Assembly (NCBI GenBank): GCA_015351705.1
Contig: JADIIM010000043.1
Span: 1 to 64,000, forward strand
From: Aeromicrobium sp.
GTDB lineage: Bacteria > Actinomycetota > Coriobacteriia > Anaerosomatales > Anaerosomataceae
Length of the DNA: 64,000 nucleotides
Direction of reading: 5' to 3'
The notes below the pieces were generated by a model. It saw only the letters and a list, made by a program, of their open reading frames with translations, was not told the origin of the DNA and ran no database searches. Position numbers and translations under genes: made by a program. Shown one piece after another: positions 7,944 through 62,343 of the stretch (position 1 is its first letter; every line of letters starts with the position of its first letter).

Positions 7944-8120
7944 ACTGGTCCCCTCCGCGCATCGGCGCCGGGCGTGACCGGCGCTCGCGTCTGCCCCTTC
8001 TGGACGGCGGTACCATTGTGCCATGTATCGGCCGTACGTCGCCTGGCGCTGCGGCACACGACTTGCTGCAGTCATACCCCTTAGGGTATACAGGGGCGTA
8101 ACCATTCGATCGGAGGTTCG
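7944..8120. promoter_or_regulatory. Divergent promoter region between glucan synthase and selenoprotein gene
   Basis: Gene-free stretch between two divergent genes. Reading right, TTGCTG (8063-8068) and TATACA (8087-8092) are separated by 18 bases, followed by GGAGG (8112-8116) and the ATG at 8121. A dyad lies in the -35/-10 spacer and runs into the -10 (separate entry). On the left-reading strand only the GGAGGGG ribosome binding site of the glucan synthase gene is clear. Confidence 0.6.
8074..8089. promoter_or_regulatory. CsoR/CstR-family-type operator dyad
   Basis: The sequence ATACCC-CTTA-GGGTAT is a perfect 6-base dyad with a 4-base centre. It lies between the -35 and -10 of the promoter for the rhodanese-thioredoxin gene and overlaps the first three bases of the -10. 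AT-flanked C-tract/G-tract dyads of this kind are the typical operators of CsoR-family repressors (copper-sensing CsoR, persulfide-sensing CstR). Placement over the RNA polymerase site fits simple repression. Because the controlled protein has a rhodanese domain, persulfide sensing is the more attractive reading, but copper cannot be excluded. No csoR-like gene is in this window. Confidence 0.6.
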
Positions 8121-8822
8121 ATGGTCCGAGTGACAACGAGATGGGCGCTGGCGGCAGCCGCGATCGCCATGGTACTCGTGGCAGCCGCGGGCTGCAGCGC
8201 CGACGGCGGCGCGATCGATAACGCACGGTTCAAGGATCTGCAGGCCGAGGGCGCCCGCATAGTCGACGTGCGCACCGCCGGCGAGTTCGCCGCGGGCCAC
8301 ATCCCCGGTGCCGAGCTTGTCCCGTACCAGGGCATCGCCCAGGTTGCCCAGGGATGGGACCCGACGCAGCCCGTGGTGGTGTACTGTGCCGTCGGTGACC
8401 GGAGCGCCGAGGCGGCGAACGTCCTGCGCTCCATGGGATTCGAGCGCGTGTACGACCTCGCGGCCGGCATCGTGGCGTGGGACGGCGACATCATCGCCGG
8501 TGAGGGCGCTGTCGCAACCGAGCCTCCTGCGGTACAGACCTCGGAGCTACCGGTCCTCTACGAGTTCTTCACCGACTGGTGACCCAGCTGCCGTGACGTG
8601 GCGCCTGTGGTCGACAGGCTGAAGACTGAGTACGAAGGCATCGTGGAGTTCCGCCTGATCAACGTGGACACCGATCCGCAGGGTGCGGCACTGATGGCAC
8701 AGTACAACGCCCAGTATGTGCCGACGTTCGTCCTGCTCAACACCGATGGATCAGTCAGCCAGACCATCGTCGGTGCTCAGAAGGAGAGTGTGTTCAGGGA
8801 GGCCCTTGACGCCCTGAAGTAG
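8121..8822 (+). CDS. Rhodanese-thioredoxin fusion lipoprotein, predicted selenoprotein (in-frame TGA at codon 154)
   Basis: Reads as one 233-residue protein if TGA 8580-8582 is decoded as selenocysteine. Residues 1-25 form a lipoprotein signal (LVAAAGC, lipid-anchored Cys25), so it should sit outside the cytoplasmic membrane. About 32-125 is a rhodanese domain with active-site Cys89 in CAVGDRS. About 140-233 is a thioredoxin fold: the strand LPVLYEFF, then W-U-P-S-C-R (Sec154, Cys157) where thioredoxins have WCxxC, and the cis-Pro motif YVPTF. The part after the TGA is in the same frame, lacks its own ribosome binding site, and would lack the first thioredoxin strand if made separately. A hairpin suited to Sec insertion follows the TGA. 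A plausible role is moving persulfide sulfur or reducing thiol partners outside the membrane. The alternatives are a nonsense mutation or sequencing error at a Cys codon. Confidence 0.85.
8580..8619 (+). promoter_or_regulatory. Candidate bacterial SECIS element downstream of the in-frame TGA
   Basis: After the TGA (8580-8582) come 26 bases to the loop of a perfect 6-bp hairpin: GCCTGT (8603-8608), loop GGTCG (8609-8613), ACAGGC (8614-8619). Bacterial SECIS elements lie inside the coding region just after the UGA. They have a short stem and an apical loop starting with G, usually about 16-37 bases from the UGA. The E. coli fdhF element also carries GGUC in its loop. All these criteria are met here. 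Binding by SelB is inferred. Confidence 0.65.
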
Positions 8823-9333: not shown

Positions 9334-9408
9334 GGGCGAGTGGCGCAACGGGAGCGCACCTGCTTTGCACGCAGGGGGTTGTCGGTTCGAATCCGATCTC
9401 GTCCACCA
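9334..9408 (+). tRNA. tRNA-Ala (anticodon TGC)
   Basis: The acceptor stem GGGCGAG pairs with CTCGTCC and contains the G3-U70 wobble that marks alanine tRNAs. The D arm uses GCGC/GCGC. The anticodon stem CCTGC/GCAGG holds the loop TTTGCAC with anticodon TGC. The T arm has GTCGG-TTCGAAT-CCGAT. The discriminator A and the 3' CCA are encoded (9405-9408). The 75-base length and complete cloverleaf indicate a functional gene. Confidence 0.93.
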
Positions 9409-53461: not shown

Positions 53462-53665
53462 AGCTCCGTCCCTCGTCTGAGGTTTTGGCACTGTCCGACG
53501 TAGGGCGCACGCATCCGCGTGCGGCGGGCATGCCCGCCTTTGCAGTCCCAGCCACCTTAGCCGTCCCCTTAAGCCGGGGAGGGCTGTTCTACCCATTGGC
53601 GTCTCTCGACATTTCCGGGCAGTGGCCTGTGTTCGAACAGGAGCCGCACCTTAACGGATGGAGCT
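53462..53665 (-). promoter_or_regulatory. M-box (ykoK) magnesium riboswitch
   Basis: Read on the minus strand, the conserved M-box blocks appear in order: CCGTTAAGGTGCGGCTCCTG, then CACTGCCCGGAAATGTC, GACGCCAATGGGT, AAGGTGGCTGGGACTGCAAA and GGACAGTGCCAAAACCTC. The closing helix forms between AGCTCC (53665-53660) and GGAGCT (53467-53462). M-boxes bind Mg2+ and switch off magnesium-transporter genes when Mg2+ is plentiful, fitting the MgtE-like and NRMT genes downstream. A terminator hairpin follows. Confidence 0.93.
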
Positions 53666-58912: not shown

Positions 58913-59287
58913 TCAGCCGTCTAGCATACGCTCGACATGAGCACGCAGGTCCGCCGGCGTGAACGGCTTGGTCAGGTAATCGTTACATCCGAGCGATTCG
59001 CCGAGTGCGAGGTCGGCCTGCTGGGCCGCTGTGGTGAGCATCATGACCGGGATGTCGGCAGTCTCGGGGCGCTTGCGCATGAAGCGCAGGACCTCCCAGC
59101 CATCGAGCTTGGGCATGGTGACGTCGAGCAGCACGAGGTCAGGGGAGCGACTCAGCGCGAGCTCGAGCGCCTCCTCGCCGTCGATCGCCTCGATCAGCTC
59201 GTGGTCCAGCGAGCGCAGCGCGGCCTTGACCAGCATGCGGATCTGCTGATTGTCGTCAGCGGTCAGGATGACGCGTTGCGTCGTCAC
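58913..59287 (-). CDS. Single-domain response regulator (receiver)
   Basis: A 124-residue CheY-like protein. Acidic pocket ADDN near residue 9, phospho-accepting Asp in LVLLDVTMP near 54, Thr in MLTTAA and Lys in LTKPF near 106 are all present. GTG 59287 follows AAGGGG; the longer frame upstream lies in the preceding gene. There is no output domain. It is the last gene of the kinase-regulator operon. Confidence 0.9.
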   Translation of the reverse strand: MTTQRVILTADDNQQIRMLVKAALRSLDHELIEAIDGEEALELALSRSPDLVLLDVTMPKLDGWEVLRFMRKRPETADIPVMMLTTAAQQADLALGESLGCNDYLTKPFTPADLRAHVERMLDG

Positions 59288-59315
59288 GGCAGCCCCTTGC
59301 TCGTGCGGCGTCGTG

Positions 59316-59771
59316 TCAGTCCCGGTCGCGGTGCATGATCTCCACGATCTTGGAGAGCTTTGCCTCGCGCCTGCCGCGCTCGCGCTCGAACGCTTCACGC
59401 CGTGCCGGGTCGAGCATCGCCGAGATGTGATCCGCGACCTCGGAGGGCTTGAACGGCTTGGGCAGGTAGTCACTGTACGGGTCCGACGCGATCTCCCGGT
59501 GCTGCTCCTCGAAGGTCCCGGCTGCTGACAGGAAGAGGATCGGAGTCTCCTTCGTGTCCTCCTTCTGGCGCAGACGGTCGTGCACCTGATGGCCGGTGAG
59601 TCCGGGCATCATGACGTCGAGCACGATGAGGTCAGGTTTCTCGGCTGCGGCCATGCCCACGGCCTGTAGGCCGTCCTCGGCCTCGAGCACCTCGAATCCG
59701 CGGTTGGTGAGCGCCACGTTCAGCAGCTTTCGGATCGACGGCTCGTCATCGACGACGAGGATCTTCTTCAT
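59316..59771 (-). CDS. Response regulator receiver with short C-terminal tail
   Basis: A 151-residue protein: receiver domain (about 1-120) with VVDDEP, Asp in LIVLDVMMPG near 54, FLSAA and LPKPF, followed by a basic/acidic helical tail of about 30 residues (ARREAFERERGRREAKLSKI). ATG 59771 shares one base with the upstream stop (TGATG). The tail is too short for a known output domain. Confidence 0.9.
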   Translation of the reverse strand: MKKILVVDDEPSIRKLLNVALTNRGFEVLEAEDGLQAVGMAAAEKPDLIVLDVMMPGLTGHQVHDRLRQKEDTKETPILFLSAAGTFEEQHREIASDPYSDYLPKPFKPSEVADHISAMLDPARREAFERERGRREAKLSKIVEIMHRDRD

Positions 59772-60154
59772 CACTCGGTCCCTTCCCCCGCTTCGGACAG
59801 CAGTTCCATCACCTGGCTGACCAGGTCCTTCGGCGTGAACGGCTTGCAGATGTATTCGCGAGCGCCGCACGCCAGCCCTTCTTCGACCTCGGCCTTCTGG
59901 CTCTTGGCCGAGAGCATCGCAACCGGGATGTCGGCGATCGCCGGGTCCGCCTTGATCTCCCGGAGTGCGTCGTAACCGGTCATGACCGGCATCATCACGT
60001 CGAGGAGGATGAGGTCGGGCATGACCTCGCGCGCCAGCCGCACCGCCTCGCCGCCATCGGACGCCTCCACCACTTCATACCCGCGATTGCCGAGCGTGAA
60101 GGAGACCAGTTTTCGGATGTGCGGCTCATCGTCCGCGATCAGGATGCGGCTCAC
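59771..60154 (-). CDS. Single-domain response regulator (receiver)
   Basis: A 127-residue CheY-like protein with ADDEPH, Asp in LILLDVMMPVM near 53, MLSAKS and CKPFTP. Its ATG overlaps the stop of the hybrid kinase gene by four bases, so it is probably a direct partner of that kinase. No DNA-binding or enzymatic output domain. Confidence 0.9.
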   Translation of the reverse strand: MSRILIADDEPHIRKLVSFTLGNRGYEVVEASDGGEAVRLAREVMPDLILLDVMMPVMTGYDALREIKADPAIADIPVAMLSAKSQKAEVEEGLACGAREYICKPFTPKDLVSQVMELLSEAGEGTE

Positions 60155-62343
60155 TGGCTCACCCCGTCGTGCAGGACGGACTCGATGCGGGACACGAACT
60201 CGTCGGCGTCGAACGGCTTGCAGATCTGCTCGGCAGCCAGGCTCAGAACGTCGGCGCGCTCACGATCGAAGTGGTACGCCGACATGATGACCACCGGGAT
60301 GTCGGCGGTGGCCTCGTCGGTCTTGAGCGCCTGCAGCACCTCATACCCGTCCATGACCGGCATGCGCAGGTCCAGAAGGATCGCGTGAGGCTTGCGCTGG
60401 GTGATCGCCGCCATCGCCTCCTTGCCGTCGTAGGCCGCCATGACCGCATAACCGCGCTGCTTGAGCGTGCGGGACAGCAATTCCACGATAGCCTTGTCGT
60501 CATCGACGACGAGCACCACGGGCGATGCCACCGAGCCAACGAGGTCGTCGATCACGCCGAGCAGGCGGGTCTTGTCCACCGGCTTCTCGAGGTAGCCGGT
60601 GGCGCCCATGCGGTGGCTCTTGCCCTCGTCGCAGATGATGGAGAGCACCACAACGGGGATGTCGCGCGTCTTCTCGTCGGCCTTGAGCTTCTGCAGCAGG
60701 TCGAAACCGGCTCCCTCGTCGAGCATGACGTCGAGTGTGATGACCCGCGGCTCGAAGTCGATGGCCGACCGCCACGCCTCCTCGGCGGAGAAGGCCTTGA
60801 CCACCTCGTACCCGCGGCGCGACAGGTACGTCGCGATGAGGTTGGCGACGTCCTCGGAGTTGTCCACGACCAGGATCCGACCGCCGGGTGTGCCGAGTGG
60901 GCCCTCGAGCGATGGCGTGCGGACGAGCTGCGCCGAGGCGAGCGGCAGCTCGAACCAGAACGTGGAGCCTGCATCGGGCTCGCTCTCAACGCCCACGCGA
61001 CCGCCGAGCAGTTCGATGATGCTCTTGCAGATCGACAGCCCCAGGCCGGTGCCGCCGATCTCGCGGGTGAGCGATGAGTCGACCCGGTAGAACTTCGTGA
61101 ACAGCCGCGCCTGGTCCTCCGGCGCGATGCCGATGCCGTGATCGGTGATCGCCACCCGGACGGCTTCATCCACCCCGAATGCTCGAACGTCCACGTCACC
61201 GCCGGCAGGCGAGTACTTGATGGCGTTGCTGATGAAGTTGATGAGCACCTGCCCGATGCGGTCGGGGTCTCCGGCGGCCTTCGGCAGGTCGTCGGGCAGC
61301 TCCACGTTGATCTTCCGGCCCTGCTGGTCGAGCACCGCGCGGAACGTGTTGACGGCGCCGTCGATGCGCTCGGCAAGGTCCAGCGGTTGGACCTTGAGCA
61401 CGATGCGCCCGCTCTCGATTCGCGAGATGTCGAGCATGTCGTTGATGAGCTCGACCAGGCGGTCAGAGTTCTCCTTCACTATGGAGAGGAACTCATGCTG
61501 AATCTCGTTGATCTCGCCCGCCTCACCATCGAGGATCAAGTCGATGTAGCCCTTGATGGAGGTGAGCGGTGTGCGGAGCTCGTGACTCACGGTGGAGACG
61601 AACTCGTTCTTCATCTGAGTCGCTTCGCGCTCGGAGGTCACGTCGCGTATCGTCATGACCGCGCCCATGTACGAGCCGGTATCGTCGAGCACGGGGTCGA
61701 GCCGAACATCGACGATCCGGTGCTCGGGCTCCTCCATGCGGACCTCGCGCAGCTGCGACCCGGTATCGCGCAAATCGCCTTCCGGGCCGAGGCCGAAGAG
61801 CGACCAGGGCTCATCCATGCGACCCACCACGGACTCGGCCCCCTTGCCGAGCATGCGCTCGGCGGCGGGATTCATGAACGTGATGCGGCCGGTGGTGTCG
61901 AAGATGAGCAGGCCGTCACCGGTGCTCGAGAGCACCGCCTCCTGTCGGCGCCGGATACGCATGATCTCGCTGTCATCGCGGATCGTGATGACGGCAGCGT
62001 GCTCATCGCCGTCGGCGTAGGGCGACACGATGCACGTGTAGTCAAGACCTCCGCGCTCCATCACCCAGGTCGCTGCCTGGCGGTCGTGAAGCGCGGTCTC
62101 GATCGCCACCACAAGGCCGGGGAACGCATCGCCATCGATCTCCCGTTTGACGGTCGCCTGACGGTCGACCTCGAGGATCTCGGCGGCGCGTTCGTTCATG
62201 ACGCGGACCGTGCGGTCCGGCGCGATGGCGATGAGCCCCTCGCTCGTGCCGGCCAGAAGCGCCCGTATGTGAGCGTTGCAGCGACGTTCTTGCGTGACGT
62301 CAGGCACGATGACCCCCTGTGTGCGGGCAGACGCATCCACCAC
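60151..62343 (-). CDS. Hybrid histidine kinase: PAS-PAS-HisKA-HATPase-REC-REC
   Basis: A 730-residue soluble sensor kinase. PAS-like regions lie at about 20-115 and 130-235; the H-box FVSTVSHELRTPL is near 250 and the ATPase domain about 355-470, with N-box NFISNAIKYS, DHGIGIAPED and GGTGLGLSIC. Two receivers follow: about 485-600 (VVDNSED, Asp in ITLDVML) and about 610-725 (VVDDDK, Asp in ILLDLRMP). No membrane helix is seen, so it should sense a cytoplasmic cue. GTG 62343 is tentative; a second GTG follows at once. It heads an operon with three receiver-only proteins. Confidence 0.93.
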   Translation of the reverse strand: MVDASARTQGVIVPDVTQERRCNAHIRALLAGTSEGLIAIAPDRTVRVMNERAAEILEVDRQATVKREIDGDAFPGLVVAIETALHDRQAATWVMERGGLDYTCIVSPYADGDEHAAVITIRDDSEIMRIRRRQEAVLSSTGDGLLIFDTTGRITFMNPAAERMLGKGAESVVGRMDEPWSLFGLGPEGDLRDTGSQLREVRMEEPEHRIVDVRLDPVLDDTGSYMGAVMTIRDVTSEREATQMKNEFVSTVSHELRTPLTSIKGYIDLILDGEAGEINEIQHEFLSIVKENSDRLVELINDMLDISRIESGRIVLKVQPLDLAERIDGAVNTFRAVLDQQGRKINVELPDDLPKAAGDPDRIGQVLINFISNAIKYSPAGGDVDVRAFGVDEAVRVAITDHGIGIAPEDQARLFTKFYRVDSSLTREIGGTGLGLSICKSIIELLGGRVGVESEPDAGSTFWFELPLASAQLVRTPSLEGPLGTPGGRILVVDNSEDVANLIATYLSRRGYEVVKAFSAEEAWRSAIDFEPRVITLDVMLDEGAGFDLLQKLKADEKTRDIPVVVLSIICDEGKSHRMGATGYLEKPVDKTRLLGVIDDLVGSVASPVVLVVDDDKAIVELLSRTLKQRGYAVMAAYDGKEAMAAITQRKPHAILLDLRMPVMDGYEVLQALKTDEATADIPVVIMSAYHFDRERADVLSLAAEQICKPFDADEFVSRIESVLHDGVSQ

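Follow-up and report, generated by a model that had tools for sequence, protein, structure and literature searches.

A probable rhodanese-thioredoxin selenoprotein and its predicted CsoR-type regulon in an order of Coriobacteriia

The gene at positions 8121-8822 of the window, by which we mean the whole stretch of 64,000 nucleotides analyzed here, raises the question of whether an in-frame TGA ends its product or is read as selenocysteine (Sec) and, in the latter case, what the resulting protein would do. A single TGA (8580-8582) interrupts an otherwise open frame and falls, as a preliminary description of the locus had pointed out, on the redox-active position of the first thioredoxin Cys, giving W-U-P-S-C in the reading ...YEFFTDW-U-PSCRDVAPVVDRL... 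The features of the locus, all on the forward strand, are the following:

8074-8089 (+): predicted CsoR/CstR-type operator, ATACCCCTTAGGGTAT (ATACC-n6-GGTAT), 31 bp upstream of the ATG
8112-8116 (+): Shine-Dalgarno sequence GGAGG preceding the ATG at 8121, read directly from the sequence
8121-8822 (+): predicted selenoprotein gene, 233 aa with the TGA read as Sec, stop codon TAG at 8820-8822
8121-8195 (+): signal/anchor segment ending in a lipobox-like AAGC (Cys25), AF2 helix at residues 7-23
8229-8483 (+): rhodanese domain, aa 37-121 (Pfam), active loop C89-AVGD-R94-S95
8385-8387 (+): codon of the rhodanese catalytic Cys89 (sequence and alignment)
8532-8807 (+): thioredoxin domain, aa 138-229, cis-Pro motif YVPTF (Pfam, alignment, AF2)
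8580-8582 (+): in-frame TGA, predicted selenocysteine 154 of WUPSC, TGA in 69/69 copies
8589-8591 (+): TGC codon of the resolving Cys157, invariant in alignment A1
8603-8619 (+): bacterial SECIS hairpin, arms 8603-8608 and 8614-8619 (6 bp), apical loop GGUCG at 8609-8613

The proposed fusion of a rhodanese to a thioredoxin was borne out by Pfam searches with the read-through product, which matched both domains (rhodanese, PF00581, E 1.5e-18; thioredoxin, PF00085, E 4.4e-15). The rhodanese match is accompanied by a CxxGxR active loop, in which R94 and S95 are invariant across alignment A1 and C89 is conserved in at least 90% of the sequences, one orthologue (L047) lacking the rhodanese Cys. The downstream, thioredoxin half is also conserved, with C157 and P201 invariant in the same alignment. 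Its score against the TrxA equivalog profile TIGR01068 (59.2 bits) lies below the cut-off of 96.8 bits, and it is referred to here as a thioredoxin-fold domain (PF00085) and not as TrxA; among the NCBIfam profiles run against the read-through protein, no family scored over its own cut-off. The AF2 model (pTM 0.59) does not fix the mutual orientation of the rhodanese and thioredoxin domains, and each of the Foldseek matches listed covers one thioredoxin-sized domain alone. The lipid anchor that had been predicted is plausible in this species, which has the lipobox-like LVAAAGC (Cys25), and in nine relatives, but it does not extend to the whole family. In most of the 51 full-length proteins, the hydrophobic segment at the N-terminus lacks a lipobox-like Cys, and "membrane-anchored" is therefore the safer general term. 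A consensus scan for a sigma-70 promoter and a terminator found neither.

To weigh the TGA itself, the comparison covered 69 genomes from one order of the Coriobacteriia (Actinomycetota), probably Anaerosomatales/OPB41, 60 of which contain relatives of the gene, and the rhodanese-thioredoxin arrangement with an in-frame TGA recurs in most of the related genomes searched. The aligned codon is TGA in all 69 copies read, which comprise full-length orthologues (53, classed by match span) and stand-alone thioredoxin paralogues; the sole non-TGA match fetched (G038) is weak and does not align at that codon. Genomes sampled from the class but outside the order gave no match at E 1e-22. The expected alternation of TGA and Cys codons among homologues was found in one sense only: fusions with Cys exist in Bacteroidota MAGs (L054, WCAPC; L056, WCEPC), whereas inside the order no Cys version of the Sec position was seen. 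The Trp preceding the Sec is not essential, because two orthologues (L172, L175) present GUTYC in place of WUPxC and many distant orthologues have S, T, G or A at this position. The stand-alone thioredoxins (L193-L208), which lack a recognized rhodanese and are found alongside the fusion in many genomes, share with it both the position of the TGA and the SECIS hairpin. Since TGA also serves as the terminal stop, right after the conserved C-terminus, in 16 of the 69 genes, the codon is not reassigned and its context must decide how it is read. A genome-wide reassignment of TGA to an amino acid would be compatible with the conserved read-through product, but it is refuted by these terminal stops and further contradicted by the presence of tRNA-Sec and SelA in the order, so that it carries practically no weight.

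The context in question is the hairpin with loop GGTCG and a 6-bp stem, already noted in the preliminary description, which starts 20 nt after the TGA and places its loop at 26 nt. The bSECIS model, as given in the consulted part of a 2026 selenoprotein inventory (PMC13188914), requires a loop of 3-9 nt with a G in the first two loop positions, a stem of 4-16 bp, a distance of 16-37 nt from the UGA and an MFE of at most -7.5; the hairpin described here, with its loop GGUCG, 6 bp, 26 nt and -10.3 kcal/mol, lies within all of these limits. The suggested folding of the TGA region as a single sequence was unhelpful, as the 71-nt region folds no better than shuffled DNA (z 0.01), and the hairpin would hence prove little in one genome. 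The comparative signal is of a different order, with stem cells paired in 99.7% of cases over 64 distinct sequences as against 24-53% for slid controls. Two of the six stem pairs vary freely yet stay paired, through three- and four-way compensatory changes. Column pair 26-36, which joins the wobble base of a Pro codon to the first base of an Arg/Gly codon, occurs as T-A, C-G and G-C (39, 24 and 1 sequences, respectively), and column pair 27-35, which joins base 1 of a Val/Leu/Ile codon to base 3 of an Asp/Glu/Asn codon, occurs as G-C, C-G, A-T and T-A, plus one G-T. For either pair, the observed pairing was reached by none of 5000 shuffles; the shuffle test ignores relatedness, yet no single inherited change can produce four kinds of pair at the same position. 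A true stop, whether in a pseudogene, through a sequencing error or between two separate genes, would agree with the interrupted frame and with the selA, selB and selC genes missing from the assembly, but all 69 copies read across the order have the TGA and share a covarying hairpin, and the downstream half is conserved, which refutes this explanation and leaves it a negligible probability.

The search of the organism's own genome for Sec machinery returned a partial set. SelD is encoded, itself with an in-frame TGA (GUAAK), and selA, selB and selC were not found in the assembly. The top "tRNA-Sec" matches are ordinary tRNAs (Ser, Trp, Leu and others), and the top SelB match is an EF-Tu cut by a contig end. 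In the related genome G012, selD is followed by VapBC-like genes, an oppositely oriented and very large gene, selA, a gene for a 124-aa protein and selB, with selC about 6.6 kb later. The corresponding contig of the present assembly (C29) contains selD, a VapBC-like pair and the C-terminal ~347 aa of the very large gene (1451 aa, 79% identity), and then ends. Because the gene in which C29 breaks off is the one that stands before selA-selB in G012, the three genes probably lie beyond the contig break, and an assembly gap, a single instance of which covers all three, is probably the best explanation of their absence. A chimeric search of the assembly for the genes flanking selB in G012 returned only 28-44% response-regulator paralogues, and the 124-aa linker protein of G012 had no match in it, which is consistent with the whole selA-selB block missing from the assembly.

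Across the order, SelA scored over the cut-off in 54 of the 69 genomes and tRNA-Sec was found in 51. Either selA or selC is present in 49 of the 59 genomes with a TGA copy, and the remaining ten are for the most part fragmentary; the clearest exception is G025, a sister genome of about 10 contigs and 98% completeness, in which the TGA gene is present and selA and selC are missing. The TGA gene is likewise missing from G029 and G068, near-complete genomes that have neither selA nor selC. Two tRNA-Sec genes per genome were observed in G013, G015 and G035. In several relatives (L140:8565-8939, L141:8619-8993, L143:8975-9385), the space between selA and selB is taken by the gene for a conserved small protein of ~124 aa (MGLDNYASRSLDEVE...), which may be an undescribed component of the Sec machinery.

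The decoding of UGA 8580 as Sec, predicted from the single locus, is thus supported by the invariant TGA, the covarying SECIS and the Sec-containing SelD of the same genome, and also by tRNA-Sec and SelA across the order and by the Cys fusions elsewhere; it is very nearly certain on these grounds that the gene encodes a real selenoprotein. The sequence evidence points to a widespread one, which standard annotation would end after 153 aa, dropping the catalytic thioredoxin half. For the complete reading, that of a membrane-anchored extracytoplasmic rhodanese joined to a Sec-x-x-Cys thioredoxin and operating by the mechanism proposed below, we estimate a probability of roughly 85%, a value weighted to the part that the sequence displays directly.

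Regarding function, 40 of 51 orthologues have the palindrome core of the operator in their upstream region, where shuffled sequence would give 0.06, and a genome-wide count yielded 9 motif sites versus 2 for the reversed control. The same operator motif precedes ccdA (PF02683, DsbD_TM) and a canonical WCGPC thioredoxin gene that clusters with the only CsoR-family gene found in the genome; further sites precede genes for a sodium/bile-acid-type (SBF) transporter, an FAD-linked oxidase and a chemotaxis receptor, and in relatives the motif recurs before ccdA, thioredoxin, SBF-like and oxidase genes. In Streptomyces coelicolor, CsoR binds ATACCn6GGTAT and is released once polysulfide has reacted with its two Cys; its regulon (Scpdo, Scrhod) includes a rhodanese gene, according to the consulted part of the report (PMC7533328). 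The predicted operator at 8074-8089 is identical to this sulfane-sulfur site (PMC7533328), and ATACCn6GGTAT resembles copper CsoR and RicR sites as well. In five genera, two Cys of the CsoR-family regulator are conserved and the ligand His of copper CsoRs is replaced by Ser. Both sequence marks of a sulfane-sulfur regulon are present: ATACCn6GGTAT upstream of the gene and, in the genome, a two-Cys CsoR-family regulator without the Cu-ligand His. The resemblance to copper sites could instead place the same selenoprotein in a copper or metal-stress regulon with a metal-sensing CsoR-family regulator, as might the motif's position before a heavy-metal P-type ATPase in one relative and, in the own genome, a cation-efflux gene adjoining csoR; this assignment appears improbable given the regulator's residues in the five genera and targets that include ccdA, thioredoxin and rhodanese.

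A sulfane-sulfur reductase outside the membrane is inferred from the operator, the two-Cys regulator and the matches of CcdA and of the thioredoxin half to the profile of TsoB (NF045694), which spans a DsbD-type membrane part, matched by CcdA, and a thioredoxin part, matched by the selenoprotein. In the proposed mechanism, rhodanese Cys89 would take up sulfane sulfur from polysulfide, thiosulfate or a protein persulfide, becoming a persulfide itself; Sec154 would attack this persulfide, releasing H2S or a reduced thiol and leaving a Sec154-Cys157 selenenylsulfide; and CcdA, a DsbD-like membrane carrier fed by cytoplasmic thioredoxin, would re-reduce that bond. Accumulating sulfane sulfur would be sensed by the CsoR/CstR-type repressor through its two conserved Cys, in the absence of a copper-ligand His, and the selenoprotein gene, ccdA and the thioredoxin gene would be switched on. 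Sec and extracytoplasmic rhodanese chemistry may be coupled, as the preliminary description had supposed, a reading strengthened by the sulfane-sulfur-type operator common to the gene and ccdA. We regard a role as extracytoplasmic persulfide/polysulfide reductase, re-reduced via CcdA, as the most likely function, at slightly better than even odds.

The same selenoprotein might alternatively perform general extracytoplasmic thiol-disulfide reduction, as a disulfide reductase or as a partner in cytochrome c maturation or of methionine sulfoxide reductase, in the manner of CcdA-dependent lipoprotein thioredoxins, with the rhodanese as a docking or regulatory module. The surface thioredoxin-family lipoproteins of pneumococcus have CcdA partners. 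Together with the description of those lipoproteins (PMC3914529), the occurrence of Sec-thioredoxin domains without rhodanese in the same genomes and the operator motif shared with the CcdA gene speak for such a role, but the rhodanese active loop is kept across A1 and the operator is of the sulfane-sulfur type that controls a rhodanese in S. coelicolor (PMC7533328, part consulted), which makes general reduction doubtful. For sulfane-sulfur reduction, we put at about even odds the broader proposal of one regulon conserved across the order, in which the rhodanese-Sec-thioredoxin, CcdA, a cytoplasmic thioredoxin and a two-Cys CsoR persulfide sensor would provide selenium-dependent sulfane-sulfur reduction outside the membrane, for fast polysulfide detoxification or respiratory use by these anaerobes.

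Thioredoxin selenoproteins with UxxC and several rhodanese selenoproteins are already known (PMC13188914, part consulted). The former (PF00085) likewise have Sec at the first thioredoxin active-site Cys and a SECIS directly downstream; the present protein differs in its fused N-terminal rhodanese, its membrane anchor and its score below the TIGR01068 cut-off. Forms 1-4 of the rhodanese selenoproteins share with it the presence of a rhodanese-domain protein in the selenoproteome, but carry Sec in rhodanese-family motifs (UxxS, UxxG, CxU), whereas here the rhodanese Cys is kept and Sec lies in the fused thioredoxin (PMC13188914, part consulted). TsoB, a rhodanese/DsbD fusion-like selenoprotein, also combines rhodanese, a DsbD-type membrane part and thioredoxin, and its electron path is likely similar to that of the rhodanese-thioredoxin selenoprotein with CcdA. 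TsoB is, however, one protein of 572 positions with UxxxxU, while here the rhodanese-thioredoxin and CcdA are separate genes with the same operator and one Sec in UxxC; the selenoprotein, having no membrane part, scores 44.5 bits against the NF045694 cut-off of 805. The Bacteroidota fusions L054 and L056 agree in domain order, a short N-terminal signal and WCxPC, and differ in having Cys instead of Sec, in their 33-36% identity and in belonging to another phylum. The S. coelicolor CsoR regulon shares the operator, a rhodanese target and a two-Cys CsoR-family sulfane-sulfur sensor, but the consulted part of its description (PMC7533328) mentions neither a selenoprotein nor a CcdA target, and binding in the present case is predicted. 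The impression that this domain combination had not been described as a selenoprotein agrees with the consulted part of the 2026 inventory (PMC13188914), in which no fusion of a rhodanese to a Sec-containing thioredoxin is listed. A literature search on rhodanese-thioredoxin fusions and on selenoproteins of the group, covering main texts and a minority of the subscription journals, found nothing relevant, and an earlier mention is possible.

The locus ties selenocysteine to a predicted persulfide-sensing regulon and CcdA, and brings together, under a single predicted function, several genes of anaerobes that are mostly uncultivated. The reason for selenium in a thioredoxin becomes a testable question, through Sec/Cys swaps assayed on persulfide or polysulfide. 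Elsewhere in the window, a tRNA gene at 9334-9405 (+), tRNA-Ala by ARAGORN, lies downstream of the selenoprotein gene, and a tRNA-Ala near this gene was also seen in G008, G011, G012 and G013. Four response-regulator-like matches cluster at 58931-60516 (-), and an M-box (magnesium) riboswitch is located at 53462-53665 (-), with a score of 129 bits.
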